Assembly (NCBI GenBank): GCA_019359155.1
Contig: JAHHHV010000078.1
Location: forward strand, 1 to 64,000
Direction: 5' to 3'
From: Pegethrix bostrychoides GSE-TBD4-15B
GTDB taxonomy: Bacteria > Cyanobacteriota > Cyanobacteriia > Elainellales > Elainellaceae
Length of the DNA stretch: 64,000 nt
Shown here one piece after another: positions 52,474 through 57,113 of the stretch. The notes under the pieces were generated by a model. The model did not search any database and had not been told where the DNA came from. It saw only the letters and a program-made list of their open reading frames with translations. Position 1 is the first letter of the stretch; each line of letters starts with the position of its first letter. The position numbers were made by a program, and so were the translations under genes.

Positions 52474-55455
52474 ATGAGAATTTTTGAACGGCAGTCGGGC
52501 TGGAAGCTGAGCCTCCAGAGCCTGGGACATTACTGGCAGCGGGTCTTGGCACTAATTTTGGCGACTCTGCTCATCTTGAGTCTCCAGCAGCTGGGCTGGG
52601 GAGAGGCGCTCGAAAATCAGCTCTATTCCAGCTTTTTTCACTGGCGCGGCGCGTTGCCGCTGGATCAGTCTGTGGCAATTGTCGAAGTTGACCAAGCCAG
52701 CCTGCGCCAGCTTCAGATGTCGCCCTGGTCGCGCTCACTCTACCGGCAGCTGGTCGATCGACTGGGTGAAGCCAACCCAGCTGTGATTGCTTTAGATCAG
52801 CTGTTTGAGGGAGTTGATCCAGAGGATTTGGAGCTAGCGACCGCCATTGCTCAACAGCGAGTCGTGCTGGCTCAAGCCTGGAAATCCAGCCAGCCACTGC
52901 TGACTAGCCCGACTTTGACCCAAGCTGCCACTGCACTGGGACATATCGAGCAAACGGCTGATCCCGACGGACTCGTGCGGTCTGTGACTGCTACGGTTAA
53001 TCATCTGCCGGCGCTGGGGCTAGCCGCCATTCAAGTCTATGCAACCTATACGGGCAGACCTATACGGCCTGTTCAACCGCAAATCTGGCTCAACTGGGAA
53101 AATGCCATTCAACAGGCAGCGCATTATTCAGCGGCGGAGGTTTTGCAGGGGCAACTGCCTCCTCAGCAGTTTCGCAACAAAATTGTTCTGGTCGGCAGTA
53201 CGCTAAATCGTCAGCCAACGCCCTTCGATGCGGCGAGTCCGGCGATCTACTTCCAGGCGACGCTGGTTAGCAACTTGCTCCAGCAAGATCCACTCATCAG
53301 AATCTCGCGGTTCAAGGCTGCGCTGGTACTGCTGCTGTTGACGCTGGTGGCTTTGAGCGGCGCTCGGTGGCACTGGCAGCAGCAGATCTGGCTCTGGGTG
53401 AGTTTGGGGGTAGCCTGGGCAGGGCTGAGCTGGTTGGCGTTTAGGGCAAATCTCTGGCTGCCAGTGGCGCTGCCGCTAATCTGGCTTTTGAGCGTCGGCG
53501 GACTGCTGCTGCTGATTCGGTTTGTGACGACCTTTTTTGAACTGCGCCAGAACGCAACTCGCTATACGCTGATGACGCAGGGCTTCAATGAAGGAGTCTG
53601 GGACTGGGATTTAAAGACTAATCGCTTCTATATTTCACCGCGCTGGAAGCAGATGATTGGCTACAGTGAAGCCGCGCTGAGCGACCAGCCGCAGGAGTGG
53701 TTTGACCGCGTGCATCCGCTTGATCGGGCCGCTTTGGATGCCGCGATCACAGACTATCTAGCGGGCAGAGGTAGCCACTTTGAGCAGGAGTATCGGCTGC
53801 GGCATGAGGACGGCAGCTATCGCTGGATGCAGGGACGCGGGCTAGCGGTTTTTAAGGTGGGCAAAGCAAAGCGGCTGGTGGGATCGCAGGTGGACATTAC
53901 AGCGCAGAAGCAGGCTGAAGAGGAGCTATGGCGCAGCACCTTTTTTGACCGACTCACCGAACTGCCGAGCTGGACTGGCTTTGTCGATCATCTTCAGCAG
54001 GCGATTGACCAGGTGCAGCAGGATGCTCAATTCCGATTTGCTATTCTCTGGCTCGACCTCGACCAGTTCAAGCTGGTGAATCACAGTCTGGGTAACAGCC
54101 TGGGGGATCGGCTGCTGGTGGCAATTGCTCAGCGGCTCAAGACGTTTTTGCCAGCCAGCGAGATTGTGGCGAGACTCGGCGAAGATGAGTTTGCGGTTTT
54201 GCTGCGGCAGATCCAAGATCGCGACGAGGTGATCCGCGTGGCTGAGCAGATCCAGCAGGAGTTGACTCGGCCTTTTAATCTGGAAGAGCATGAGGTGTTT
54301 GTTACGGTTAGCGTCGGCATTGCGCTGAGCGCGCCTTACTACGCCGAGCCTGAGCATCTGCTGCGGGATGCCGGAACCGCGATGTATCGAGCGAAGGCGA
54401 TGGGACGCGCCAGCTGTCTGGTTTTTGAAAGGAGTATGCGGACTGGGATGCTGGTGAAGCTACGCTTAGAGAGCGACCTGCGCCGCGCGATTGCTCAAGG
54501 GATGGCGCAAGGTGAGCGTCAGGCGGGAGAAAGCCTATCTTCAGTCACCGATTTACCAGTCACCGATTTACCAGTCGCCGATCGAGGGTTTGACGCAGAG
54601 TTCGCTGAGCTGCCTAGCACTCTATCGAATGGCGCTCATCCTCAGGTCAGCAGCGCCATTTCCAGCAGCCGATCTGACGAGCTAAACCTGCGGCTAGAAG
54701 CGCCGCCGACTCCTTCTCCAGAGCAATATCCAGAGCTAGAGCTTTACTACCAGCCGATTGTCCGGCTTTCGACAGGTCAGGTGACGGGGTTTGAGGCACT
54801 GGTGCGCTGGCAGCATGCTCAGCAGGGACTGCTGTTTCCGTCGCGGTTTATTTCCATGGCAGAAGAAACCGGGCTGATTATTCCCTTGAGCTGGTGGATT
54901 TTGCGAACGGCCTGTCGGCAGATGAGCCAGTGGCGGCAGCTATTTCCAGAAAATGCGGCGCTGACGATGAGCGTCAACCTGTCGAGCAAGCAGTTCTCGA
55001 TGACGAATCTGGCCGAGCAGATCCACCAGATTTTGCAGGAGAGTCAGCTCGAACCGACTTCGCTGAAGCTAGAGCTAACCGAGAGCATGGTGATGGAAAA
55101 TGCTGCCAGTGTGGTGGATATGCTCTATCAGCTGCGAGCGTTGGGGATTCGGCTGGCGATTGACGACTTTGGCACAGGCTACTCGTCACTCAGCTATCTG
55201 CCGCGCTTTCCGCTGACGACGCTCAAGATCGACCGCTCGTTTGTCGAAAAGATCGGCGACTGCAACGATAACTTGGAAATTGTGCGGACGATTCTAGCGC
55301 TGGCGCATAATCTGCGGATGGATGTCGTGGCCGAAGGGGTGGAAACCGAGGCGCAGGCAACCCGGCTGCGCGAGATGGGCTGTGAGTATGGGCAGGGCTT
55401 CTTCTTTTATAAGCCGCTGAACGTTGAGGCGGCGACCCAGCTTTTGGCAAAGTAA
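52474..55455 (+). CDS. CHASE2-PAS-GGDEF-EAL signalling protein
   Basis: A protein of about 993 residues: TM helix (20-40), extracytoplasmic CHASE2 sensor (about 50-278), three TM helices (279-355), PAS (about 360-485), GGDEF (489-665), a low-complexity linker (667-755) with a VTDLPVTDLPVAD duplication, and EAL (756-993). The GGDEF A-site reads RLGEDEF (Glu for the second Gly), so cyclase activity is doubtful. The EAL domain keeps FEALVRW, VNLSS, ELTES, DDFGTGYSS, LKIDRSF and AEGVET, so it should hydrolyse c-di-GMP. ATG 52474 places the first TM near the N-terminus; a GTG at 52360 would add 38 residues. Confidence 0.88.
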   Translation: MRIFERQSGWKLSLQSLGHYWQRVLALILATLLILSLQQLGWGEALENQLYSSFFHWRGALPLDQSVAIVEVDQASLRQLQMSPWSRSLYRQLVDRLGEANPAVIALDQLFEGVDPEDLELATAIAQQRVVLAQAWKSSQPLLTSPTLTQAATALGHIEQTADPDGLVRSVTATVNHLPALGLAAIQVYATYTGRPIRPVQPQIWLNWENAIQQAAHYSAAEVLQGQLPPQQFRNKIVLVGSTLNRQPTPFDAASPAIYFQATLVSNLLQQDPLIRISRFKAALVLLLLTLVALSGARWHWQQQIWLWVSLGVAWAGLSWLAFRANLWLPVALPLIWLLSVGGLLLLIRFVTTFFELRQNATRYTLMTQGFNEGVWDWDLKTNRFYISPRWKQMIGYSEAALSDQPQEWFDRVHPLDRAALDAAITDYLAGRGSHFEQEYRLRHEDGSYRWMQGRGLAVFKVGKAKRLVGSQVDITAQKQAEEELWRSTFFDRLTELPSWTGFVDHLQQAIDQVQQDAQFRFAILWLDLDQFKLVNHSLGNSLGDRLLVAIAQRLKTFLPASEIVARLGEDEFAVLLRQIQDRDEVIRVAEQIQQELTRPFNLEEHEVFVTVSVGIALSAPYYAEPEHLLRDAGTAMYRAKAMGRASCLVFERSMRTGMLVKLRLESDLRRAIAQGMAQGERQAGESLSSVTDLPVTDLPVADRGFDAEFAELPSTLSNGAHPQVSSAISSSRSDELNLRLEAPPTPSPEQYPELELYYQPIVRLSTGQVTGFEALVRWQHAQQGLLFPSRFISMAEETGLIIPLSWWILRTACRQMSQWRQLFPENAALTMSVNLSSKQFSMTNLAEQIHQILQESQLEPTSLKLELTESMVMENAASVVDMLYQLRALGIRLAIDDFGTGYSSLSYLPRFPLTTLKIDRSFVEKIGDCNDNLEIVRTILALAHNLRMDVVAEGVETEAQATRLREMGCEYGQGFFFYKPLNVEAATQLLAK

Positions 55456-55472
55456 GCTCAAAGATGCGCTAA

Positions 55473-55591
55473 TTTTCCACTTTTGATATTTCTTATCTTT
55501 TCCTCTGCCTTTTCCCGGGTTTTCCCCAGGTTTTCCCCAGGCTTTCCCCAGATTGATCCAGGTTTTCCCCAGAACTGTCGAGTTATCCACA
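55473..55591 (+). other. Phased array of DnaA-box-like 9-mers
   Basis: Same-strand 9-mers: TTTTCCACT 55473, TTTTCCCGG 55510, TTTTCCCCA 55520, 55531 and 55563, CTTTCCCCA 55542, TTGATCCAG 55553, and a perfect consensus DnaA box TTATCCACA at 55583. Start-to-start steps from 55520 are 11, 11, 11, 10 and 20 bp, close to helical repeats. The cyanobacterial DnaA box is TTTTCCACA; the array units differ by one base. This could be a DnaA-binding cluster (replication origin or DnaA-titrating site) or a regulator array. No dnaA or dnaN is near. Confidence 0.45.
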
Positions 55592-55652
55592 GCCTCGGGC
55601 AAGCAGATTCGCATCAAGCCTGAGTTTGGAGTAAATCTGGGGGAATTCCGCC

Positions 55653-55688
55653 CTCAGGACAGACCTCTGCGCCGTCGCCCTGAGTTTT
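55653..55688 (+). terminator. Possible terminator downstream of the CHASE2 gene
   Basis: CTCAGG (55653-55658) pairs with CCTGAG (55679-55684) around a 20-nt GC-rich loop and is followed by TTTT. It lies about 200 bp past the CHASE2 stop, beyond the DnaA-box-like array. The stem is short, so support is weak. Confidence 0.3.
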
Positions 55689-55898
55689 GATTAAGACATG
55701 TAACGAAAAATAGGCCACGATGCCGATTCTCTCGTCGGCTAATTTTTTAAAAGGGAGATTGAGTATAAAGACTCATGATTGCCAGAGTCTGCTGTGATCG
55801 CGCAAAATGATTGCGGCTAGGGTGGCAGATTAGCCATCAACTCCAGATGAAAGCCCTGCACTCAGGGCGTTTGAGGCAGTTTGAAATCACCGTCACAG

Positions 55899-55937
55899 TC
55901 AGGATAAAGTCAGGGCAAAGTTGGGGCAAAGTTAGGG
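55899..55937. repeat. 11-bp tandem repeat, three and a half copies
   Basis: Units TCAGGATAAAG (55899), TCAGGGCAAAG (55910) and TTGGGGCAAAG (55921), then a partial TTAGGG, are head-to-tail about 160 bp upstream of the DUF2811 ATG. It shares the 11-bp period, but not the sequence, of the array 310 bp upstream. Confidence 0.7.
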
Positions 55938-56093
55938 TTGCGTTCTGGCTGCTTTCCGCTACAATTCAGCATTCCTAGAGCGCCGAGGCTGGAACTGGCT
56001 TCCGCTCATGGTTTTGCAGATTTGCTGCATTGCCGTCTCCATCGCAGTCTGCCTTTCAGTTCACCTTCAGAGTTATCAGAGTTAGAGGTTTCT

Positions 56094-56318
56094 ATGTATA
56101 CAACGGTCAGCATTCTGGCGGAAATTCCCGAAGAGCTTCACGAGTCCTTGCAGAACTACCTAGATAGCCATCCCGACTGGGATCAAGATCGGGTGTTTTC
56201 GGCAGCGCTCTCGCTGTTTCTGCTCCAAAACGGCAGCAGCAACAGCCCGGATGCCTCGCGCAGCTATCGACGCGCCGCCAGAGTCTATCTCGACACGCTG
56301 TTTAAGCACGCGGTTTAG
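56094..56318 (+). CDS. DUF2811 domain protein
   Basis: A 74-residue protein starting MYTTVSILAEIPEELHESLQ and continuing HPDWDQDRVFSAALSLFLLQ: the DUF2811 pattern, a small helical family found in cyanobacteria. The frame is open back to 55938, but only ATG 56094 has a ribosome site (GAGG 6 nt upstream) and the family length. The AALSLFLLQ helix recalls ribbon-helix-helix antitoxins in outline, without evidence for DNA binding. Function unknown. Confidence 0.85.
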   Translation: MYTTVSILAEIPEELHESLQNYLDSHPDWDQDRVFSAALSLFLLQNGSSNSPDASRSYRRAARVYLDTLFKHAV

Positions 56319-56534
56319 CTGGCCTAGAACGCTGTAGCTCATCCTGTAGCTTAGCTCTATAGGTCCCTGAGCCTTGTCCCTGAGCAGAGCTGAGAGAATT
56401 GGCTTCACCCGACACGACTGCATCGATTGTTTACAGCTTTCGGTGAATCGCCAAATCCTTTCAGTTAACTCGGTAGAATAAGTGATCAGGCTGCGGCTCT
56501 CTATCAAAACAGGCTAAAAGGCGAGGAAGCACTT

Positions 56535-57113
56535 ATGTCCTATCTCTGGTTCAAAGCACTGCATATTGTCGGCATTGTGGCCTGGTTTGCAGGCATGTTT
56601 TATCTGCCCCGCCTGTTTGTCTACCATGCCGAAGCCAACGAGCAGCCTGAAGCCGTCCGCAGTATCTTGCAGCAGCAGTATCAGGTCATGGAAGCTCGAC
56701 TTTACAAAATTATTATGACCCCCGCCATGCTCCTGACCGTGGCAATGGCGATTGGTATGCTGGTGATGGCGCCTGAGCTGCTTCAAGAAACCTGGATTCA
56801 CGTCAAGCTGAGTCTGGTGGTGGTGCTAATTGGCTATCACCACTTTTGCAAGCGGTTGATGAATGAGATGGCGGCTGGCAAGTTTCGCTTCAGCGGCCAG
56901 CAGTTTCGCTGGTTTAATGAATTTCCGACCGTCTTGTTTGTGATCGTGGTGCTGCTGGCCGTGTTCAAAAATAGCTTTCCCACCTCGGCTGCAACCTGGG
57001 CGGTTGTCGGCTTAGTGGTGGCAATGGCCGCAATTATTCAGCTTTATGCCCGCAAGCGGCGACTGGATCGAGAAGCCGCTAGTCTAGAGGAATCTGGTTC
57101 AGCCCAGGCGTGA
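56535..57113 (+). CDS. hemJ: Protoporphyrinogen IX oxidase HemJ
   Basis: A 192-residue membrane protein of the HemJ (UPF0093/CopD-like) family that oxidises protoporphyrinogen IX to protoporphyrin IX, the last step common to heme and chlorophyll. His10 (WFKALHIVGIVAWFAGMFYL) is the known heme-binding residue; four transmembrane helices follow, with RLYKIIMTPAMLLT and HVKLSLVVVLIGYHHFCKRL as further conserved regions. Its 3' end overlaps the 3' end of the cyclase/kinase gene on the other strand by 35 bp. Confidence 0.96.
   Translation: MSYLWFKALHIVGIVAWFAGMFYLPRLFVYHAEANEQPEAVRSILQQQYQVMEARLYKIIMTPAMLLTVAMAIGMLVMAPELLQETWIHVKLSLVVVLIGYHHFCKRLMNEMAAGKFRFSGQQFRWFNEFPTVLFVIVVLLAVFKNSFPTSAATWAVVGLVVAMAAIIQLYARKRRLDREAASLEESGSAQA

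Follow-up and report, generated by a model that had tools for sequence, protein, structure and literature searches.

In most of the cyanobacteria examined, a row of probable DnaA boxes stands upstream of the small gene DUF2811, and the gene or its row of boxes is usually lost or decayed where dnaA is missing. Taken together, these observations suggest, instead of a replication origin, a control switch that is linked to DnaA and had so far gone unrecognised. The window (the whole stretch of DNA analysed, 64,000 nucleotides of a contig of Pegethrix bostrychoides) carries one such array in front of its own DUF2811 gene. Of the explanations considered, the one we favour, with reasonable confidence, is that the array is a regulatory element of the DUF2811 gene to which DnaA binds. 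That DnaA is the protein occupying the boxes is suggested by their sequence, by their spacing and by the loss of the array with dnaA. The evidence is comparative throughout; described in the following are the array and its conservation, the distance that separates it from a promoter-like sequence, its association with DUF2811, and the loss of this gene together with dnaA.

A scan of the plus strand for TTWTCCMCA, allowing up to two mismatches, found eight starts of DnaA-box-like 9-mers within 55473-55591, in agreement with the seven or eight same-strand 9-mers reported in the initial annotation of this DNA; a further two-mismatch site lies far 3' of the array, at 56012. Four of the sites in 55473-55591 are exact and two have one mismatch. 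Only 55520-55591 matches the five-box layout of the relatives (see below). It consists, all on the plus strand, of box 1 (TTTTCCCCA, 55520-55528, no mismatch, equal to the consensus form of box 1 in the relatives), box 2 (TTTTCCCCA, 55531-55539, no mismatch, 11 bp after box 1; the relatives usually have a weaker gATTCCACA), box 3 (CTTTCCCCA, 55542-55550, one mismatch, 11 bp after box 2), box 4 (TTTTCCCCA, 55563-55571, no mismatch, 21 bp after box 3) and box 5, the classical DnaA box TTATCCACA (55583-55591, no mismatch, 20 bp after box 4). The first three sites of the series are weak and fall outside the conserved layout: the outlying 9-mer TTTTCCACT at 55473-55481 (plus strand, one mismatch), and two 9-mers starting at 55498 and 55510 (55498-55518, plus strand, two mismatches each). 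The measured steps are 25, 12, 10, 11, 11, 21 and 20 bp, so the series of 11, 11, 11, 10 and 20 bp that had been claimed was only partly right. As for the claimed likeness to the cyanobacterial box, only the last box is a classical one; TTTTCCCCA accounts for three of the five and CTTTCCCCA for one, none of these four being the cyanobacterial TTTTCCACA. The view that the layout is unusual for chance was borne out: when the 64-kb window was shuffled 60 times with its dinucleotides preserved, any 119-bp stretch contained at most one exact same-strand box and at most three same-strand boxes with up to one mismatch, as compared with four and six in the real sequence. The array is real and above chance level. 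It lies in a non-coding region whose length of 638 bp (55456-56093) is as initially described, provided that the downstream gene starts at the ATG at 56094, a start position shared with the aligned relatives. The frame upstream of this gap ends at 55455, and we take it, from domain names assigned by eye, to be GGDEF-EAL-like. A search of 54000-57000 with Rfam returned nothing at the gathering threshold.

Relatives were collected by a protein scan for DUF2811 on the contigs of named genomes, and the best 80 of at least 297 (i.e. the closest, not all) were kept. Across cyanobacteria, DUF2811 is repeatedly preceded by a same-strand array of like layout, its steps being approximately 11, 11, 21-22 and 21 bp. 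Box density was counted at the 74 of these best 80 loci that have 700 bp of upstream sequence. Between -700 and -200 relative to DUF2811, same-strand boxes numbered 210 and opposite-strand boxes 2 in a total of 37 kb, whereas the surrounding DNA, serving as control, had 27 same-strand and 34 opposite-strand boxes (61 in total) in 862 kb. Two or more same-strand boxes were present at 71 of the 74 loci and in 2 of 3340 control blocks, three or more at 53 of the 74 and in none of the 3340. When positions were counted from the last box at the 76 loci with a box (again from the best 80 of at least 297), boxes with at most one mismatch were found at -21 in 64 loci, at -42/-43 in 69 and at -65/-64 in 50; box 2, which is usually weaker, was found at -54/-53 in 23 of the 76. 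For L036, L069 and L104 this count leaves out the last box, since in each of them a further box lies nearer the gene, and for the same reason that of L069 and L104 was also left out in a separate array step. An alignment of 38 arrays, drawn from the same best 80 of at least 297, yielded the consensus TTTTCCCCA-N3-ATTCCACA-N3-TTTCCACA, followed by 13 or 14 variable letters, TTTTCCACA, 12 or 13 more letters and TTTTCCACA. Pseudanabaena loci have a variant layout with a first step of 12 bp, and at two loci (L057 and L114) DUF2811 is present and the array absent.

The genes around this arrangement change. Among 62 loci from the best 80 of at least 297, the frames upstream of the array fell into 26 clusters and those downstream of DUF2811 into 19, the largest with 21 members; instead of annotated genes, the longest open frames in the vicinity were taken as neighbours. 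Since the upstream frame varies to this extent, the array follows, and belongs to, DUF2811. What is observed is a conserved DnaA-box cluster upstream of a gene, as looked for in a DnaA-regulated promoter element. The initial annotation had named conservation of the array in related genomes as a check on its proposal; conservation, which could not be seen from the window, was found upstream of DUF2811 across cyanobacteria and is the strongest evidence.

Conservation was also assessed with R1, a sequence-only profile made from 38 arrays with the window's genus excluded. The 38 were taken from 57 non-redundant arrays (out of 72, without L035-L038), 17 Pseudanabaena-type loci as well as L061 and L093 being omitted. 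When 146 genomes of the phylum were searched, some match was found in 65, not always at DUF2811. In the window's genome R1 matched three places only: after guaA (E 1.1e-10), at the window array (55533-55592, E 3.7e-7, 32 bits) and at the dnaN-side cluster (4e-6). The best matches in other genomes scored 50-74 bits, and the window copy, with its 32 bits, is low. Within 1.5 kb upstream of DUF2811 and on the same strand, a match was present in 54 of the 60 genomes having this gene, that is, in 54 of 58 with dnaA and in neither of the two without it. The six DUF2811 genomes with no upstream match are G052, G107, G163 and G167 (with dnaA) and G082 and G173 (without dnaA); direct scans found two boxes each at G052, at G107 and at one G163 gene. 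These counts come from coordinates entered by hand, namely 61 of the listed R1 rows (matches on DUF2811 contigs and those of the genomes with no upstream match) and the DUF2811 rows other than that of G133, whose match fell below the cut-off. Of the 30 loci with the best matches, 29 include DUF2811 and one includes dnaN. One match at DUF2811 was present in each of four further genomes of the window's genus that were searched, and also in G017. In all of the 22 genomes searched besides the 18 without dnaA (20 with dnaA, plus G003 and G004) at least one match was found, those of G052 and G107 not lying at DUF2811. R1 recognizes other box clusters too, including weak ones in G135 and G177, both of which are without dnaA and DUF2811. 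Fourteen of the 18 genomes without dnaA had no match anywhere; the dnaA-less genomes with a match were G396 and G436, plus G135 and G177 with their weak matches away from DUF2811. As a separate observation, directly 3' of guaA in the window's genome there is a second array of TTTTCCACA boxes, all in one direction and at steps of about 21 bp (L031 1500-1575; G000:C67:12281-12354), and an R1 cluster beside guaA is also found in G001, G008 and G009.

The fate of DUF2811 in genomes without dnaA was followed in two sets. In the 146-genome set ten members of the class were without dnaA: eight of them were without DUF2811, in G173 the gene was broken, and in G082 it was intact but had no array. A prediction of co-loss for a larger genome set was fixed before dnaA was searched there. 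Among these 388 genomes of the class, DUF2811 was undetected in 15 and dnaA in 18; 368 genomes had both genes, 2 had dnaA only, 5 had DUF2811 only and 13 had neither. DUF2811 was undetected in 13 of the 18 genomes without dnaA versus 2 of the 370 with it (Fisher p 1.5e-18 by genome, a value that ignores relatedness, and 4e-10 when whole genera were counted, with genus-level sets compiled by hand and the dnaA and DUF2811 tables compared by eye). Seven DUF2811-lacking genomes were newly seen in the larger set, five without dnaA, as predicted, and two with it. The two dnaA-only genomes, G185 and G268, are draft assemblies (380 and 460 contigs). Judged by their family and genus labels, the 13 genomes with neither gene represent only about five lineages (g48, g47, family f26, f34 and g164), and two of the genera are split: in g164, G432 and G434 are without both genes and G386 has both, whereas in g47, G175 and G384 are without both and the seven other genomes in the set have both.

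The five genomes with DUF2811 only (G082, G173, G396, G436 and G449) bear signs of decay as well: the gene is broken in two, and the array is gone in one and decayed in two. In G449 (L214) and G173 (L215) DUF2811 has in-frame stops and is a pseudogene, dnaA being absent. G082 retains the DUF2811 gene and the promoter-like sequence, but 800 bp contained no box even when one mismatch was allowed; its family members G147, G457 and G388 do have boxes. The arrays of G396 and G436 scored 39 and 24.8 bits, as compared with 61.5 in G169, a dnaA-bearing genome of their genus. The occurrence of DUF2811 is linked to that of dnaA. In G082, G396 and G436 an intact gene is kept without dnaA, so that the protein can persist after DnaA is lost. 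Because the gene is seldom kept intact together with its array after the loss of dnaA, DUF2811 most likely belongs to the pathway of DnaA, in which its product would probably act.

The spacing of sequence elements between array and gene was determined in 39 of the 76 loci with a box (from the best 80 of at least 297 relatives), Pseudanabaena-type loci being omitted. TGGGGA followed the last box at a distance of 44-45 bp in 30 of the 39. GATTnnnTCGT was present in 19 of the 39, in 16 of these 19 at 127-130 bp. In 34 of the 39 loci the distance from the last box to a promoter-like TTGACA or TTGACG is 182-184 bp; a -10-like CACAAT or CAAAAT lies at 206-209 bp in 21 of 25, and the ATG follows at 287-609 bp. 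The position of the array is thus constrained relative to the promoter-like sequence. In 36 of 38 loci of this set TTGACA and CACAAT are separated by 19 bp (20 if counted to the next letter). This is longer than usual for a strong sigma-70 promoter, and so long a spacer would be compatible with activation. In 25 of 38 loci, inverted-repeat arms of 10 bases, with up to three mismatches and of the form CGCAnCATTG / CAATGATGCG, flank the promoter-like sequence, a count given with no chance estimate.

The window preserves the order of these elements, with 12-13 bp extra. On its plus strand, the block that reads TGGGGAtTT in the relatives is TGGGGGAATT (55638-55647, 55 bp after the last box). It is followed by a conserved AT-rich block at 55686-55735 with TGTAAC (55699) and GATTCTCTCGT (55725); the counterpart of the relatives' GATTnnnTCGT lies in this block, 142 bp after the last box. 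The first promoter-like sequence is degenerate: the TTGACA ... CACAATGATGCG of the relatives corresponds to 55777-55814 on the plus strand, with TTGCCA at 55779 and CAAAAT at 55803. Since both the array and this first promoter are weaker than in most relatives, control may be weaker in the window's genome, and with so weak a copy the general finding is firmer than the activity of the array in the window. A second promoter-like block on the plus strand, at 55926-55977, has TTGCGT at 55938 and TACAAT at 55960. It is conserved in the genomes of the genus and in G017, with separate matches of 40-51 bp and 82-92% identity in G001, G002, G003 and G017. Just 5' of this block, Tandem Repeats Finder detected a second 11-bp tandem repeat (AGTCAGGGCAA, 55897-55937).

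A regulator array was one of three roles that the initial annotation had offered, along with a replication origin and a DnaA-titration site. It agrees best with the data, since in most relatives the distance between the array and the promoter-like sequence is nearly fixed and the array stays with DUF2811 despite the changing upstream gene. In the mechanism that we propose, DnaA would bind the five same-facing boxes, of which three follow each other at 11-bp steps (2-bp gaps) and two are each placed about two helical turns further on. As the boxes would lie roughly on one face of the DNA, an oligomer of DnaA could form on them and influence the promoter of DUF2811, the predicted location of which, in most relatives, is about 183 bp 3' of the last box. 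Expression of DUF2811 would then depend on how much DnaA there is or on its state, and the DUF2811 product would most likely work with, on, or downstream of DnaA. The 11-bp steps fit the findings of PMC11317965 on E. coli DnaA, which favours two boxes with 2-3 bp between them and whose binding at one such pair was strongly lowered by one added base pair. We infer DnaA control of DUF2811 from the distance to the promoter, and the identity of this promoter, the sign of the regulation and the function of DUF2811 are likewise proposals made from the sequences. On a more tentative level, DUF2811 could be a regulator or partner of DnaA whose expression is tied to DnaA by the array, the two forming a feedback loop that controls the initiation of replication or couples DnaA to another process, also where dnaA is dispensable; we regard this as a plausible idea with somewhat less than an even chance of being correct.

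The same boxes might instead serve as a titration or nucleotide-state site that stores, inactivates or reactivates DnaA, in the manner of datA or DARS, with DUF2811 as a neighbour or as part of the complex. Like datA and DARS of E. coli, the array is a DnaA-box locus outside oriC. Sequence and location of datA and DARS are reported to be conserved among E. coli strains, and here, too, same-strand box clusters lying away from the dnaN-side candidate origin are widely conserved; the second cluster, beside guaA in four genomes of the family, would also suit such a role. Unlike datA and DARS, the array is associated with a protein-coding gene and with a promoter-like sequence. A titration site leaves the near-fixed spacing to the promoter-like sequence unexplained, as a site of pure storage needs none, and it accounts neither for the linkage to one gene whose upstream neighbour changes nor for the loss of DUF2811 with dnaA. 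We therefore consider it unlikely, though it is the most serious competitor of the regulatory element.

Whether the array is an origin or a secondary origin in these cyanobacteria was judged from, among other things, the position of the replication genes. In the window's assembly, which has 92 contigs, dnaA is on C71 and dnaN on C6, and the window is C80; the array is therefore not next to either gene. On C6, tandem TTTTCCACA boxes lie about 400 bp upstream of dnaN, and nearer to dnaN there are boxes followed by a DnaA-trio, CTACTACTACTA, which makes this place the probable origin (L034 1053-1270, G000:C6). A DnaA-trio beside boxes is, in a passage of PMC8287927, the arrangement for origin unwinding. 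No run of three CTA or TAG triplets was found within 40 bp after the last box, either in the window or in the 74 relatives (from the best 80 of at least 297). The TTTTCCACA box and the dnaN-side oriC have been published for cyanobacteria (PMC4674748, PMC5987646). The array resembles that oriC in having DnaA boxes of the same consensus (PMC4674748), and differs from it in having no adjoining dnaN and no DnaA-trio of the CTA or TAG form within those 40 bp and in its location at another locus.

In 13 single-contig relatives, picked by hand, the distance between array and dnaA ranged from 0.10 to 2.49 Mb, being at least 0.95 Mb in seven and less in six, so the array keeps no fixed place relative to dnaA. 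In G065 a separate box cluster (1677-1879) adjoins dnaA (37-1377), and the array is at 3,751,007. The position of dnaN was mapped in the window's own genome only. What speaks for an origin is that a conserved AT-rich block comes after the ordered boxes with similar spacing, the firing of some cyanobacteria from several sites (PMC7198777), and a few genomes in which array and dnaA are not far apart (about 33 kb in G122, an assembly of two contigs, and 0.10 Mb in G059). Against this stand the dnaN-side cluster with its DnaA-trio elsewhere in the window's genome, the absence of the triplet run at all 74 array loci (of the best 80 of at least 297), the varying distance to dnaA in the 13 genomes and the tight linkage to one small gene. 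The array is probably not the origin of this genome, and the origin option of the initial annotation is disfavoured; for these cyanobacteria as a group, we rate an origin or secondary origin as improbable.

It is slightly less probable still that the boxes are bound by a protein other than DnaA with a similar recognition sequence. Many boxes in the window are TTTTCCCCA, which would suit such a protein. In the relatives, however, the consensus of boxes 4 and 5 is TTTTCCACA, which is the cyanobacterial box reported in a passage of PMC4674748, and in the five genomes that lack dnaA and keep traces of DUF2811 the array is gone or decayed. Slippage of a short tandem repeat was rejected as very unlikely: Tandem Repeats Finder does call an 11-bp unit in the array, and another 11-bp array lies at 55897-55937, but boxes and phase are conserved in the relatives and most spacer letters are not.

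Read as a regulatory element, the array can be compared with the DnaA-regulated genes of other bacteria. It shares with those of B. subtilis the intergenic position of the DnaA boxes (cited in PMC7198777), and its close box spacing is like that of the pairs, 2-3 bp apart, which E. coli DnaA prefers (PMC11317965). Unlike these clusters, it has five boxes that all face the same way and span about 72 bp, to which DnaA is predicted to bind. Unlike them, too, it is nearly fixed in position relative to a promoter-like sequence in most relatives across the class, and its gene is lost with dnaA. According to PMC7198777, dnaA has been lost in several cyanobacterial lineages, replication is DnaA-independent in Synechocystis 6803, Nostoc 7120 and Synechococcus 7002, and the role of DnaA in dnaA-positive species where it is dispensable is called unclear. 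The array together with DUF2811 provides a concrete candidate for the remaining role of DnaA in such cyanobacteria, and genera g164 and g47 offer natural within-genus contrasts for testing it.

The DUF2811 gene of the window (56094-56318, plus strand) encodes a protein of 74 aa that matches PF10929 with a Pfam E of 2.5e-29 and a score of 101.8 bits, versus a gathering score of 26.6. Its relatives are highly similar, with a mean column identity of 74% among 30 sequences, and all 30 proteins examined are acidic, which argues against the role of a simple DNA-binding repressor. A ribbon-helix-helix fold, suspected by eye from a strand-helix-helix pattern, is not claimed, as the acidic composition speaks against plain DNA binding. 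AlphaFold models were of low confidence (pLDDT 55 and 61 in two runs). A Foldseek comparison with the PDB gave nothing at E 0.001, and sequence searches of Pfam and the PDB gave no significant distant relative. The Pfam entry PF10929 gives no function. A full-text search of the open-licence literature found no paper with the word DUF2811, and in searches of the same literature no title or abstract start found described a link between the array, DUF2811 and DnaA. The association with DnaA boxes offers a first functional lead for DUF2811.

Two peculiarities of gene number and structure were noticed. Small genomes of family f2 (e.g. G025, G140 and G165) have two to five DUF2811 matches each, and few boxes are left near the six f2 DUF2811 genes that were scanned. 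In G260 (L213, L219) DUF2811 is in two adjacent pieces, though dnaA and the upstream boxes are present.
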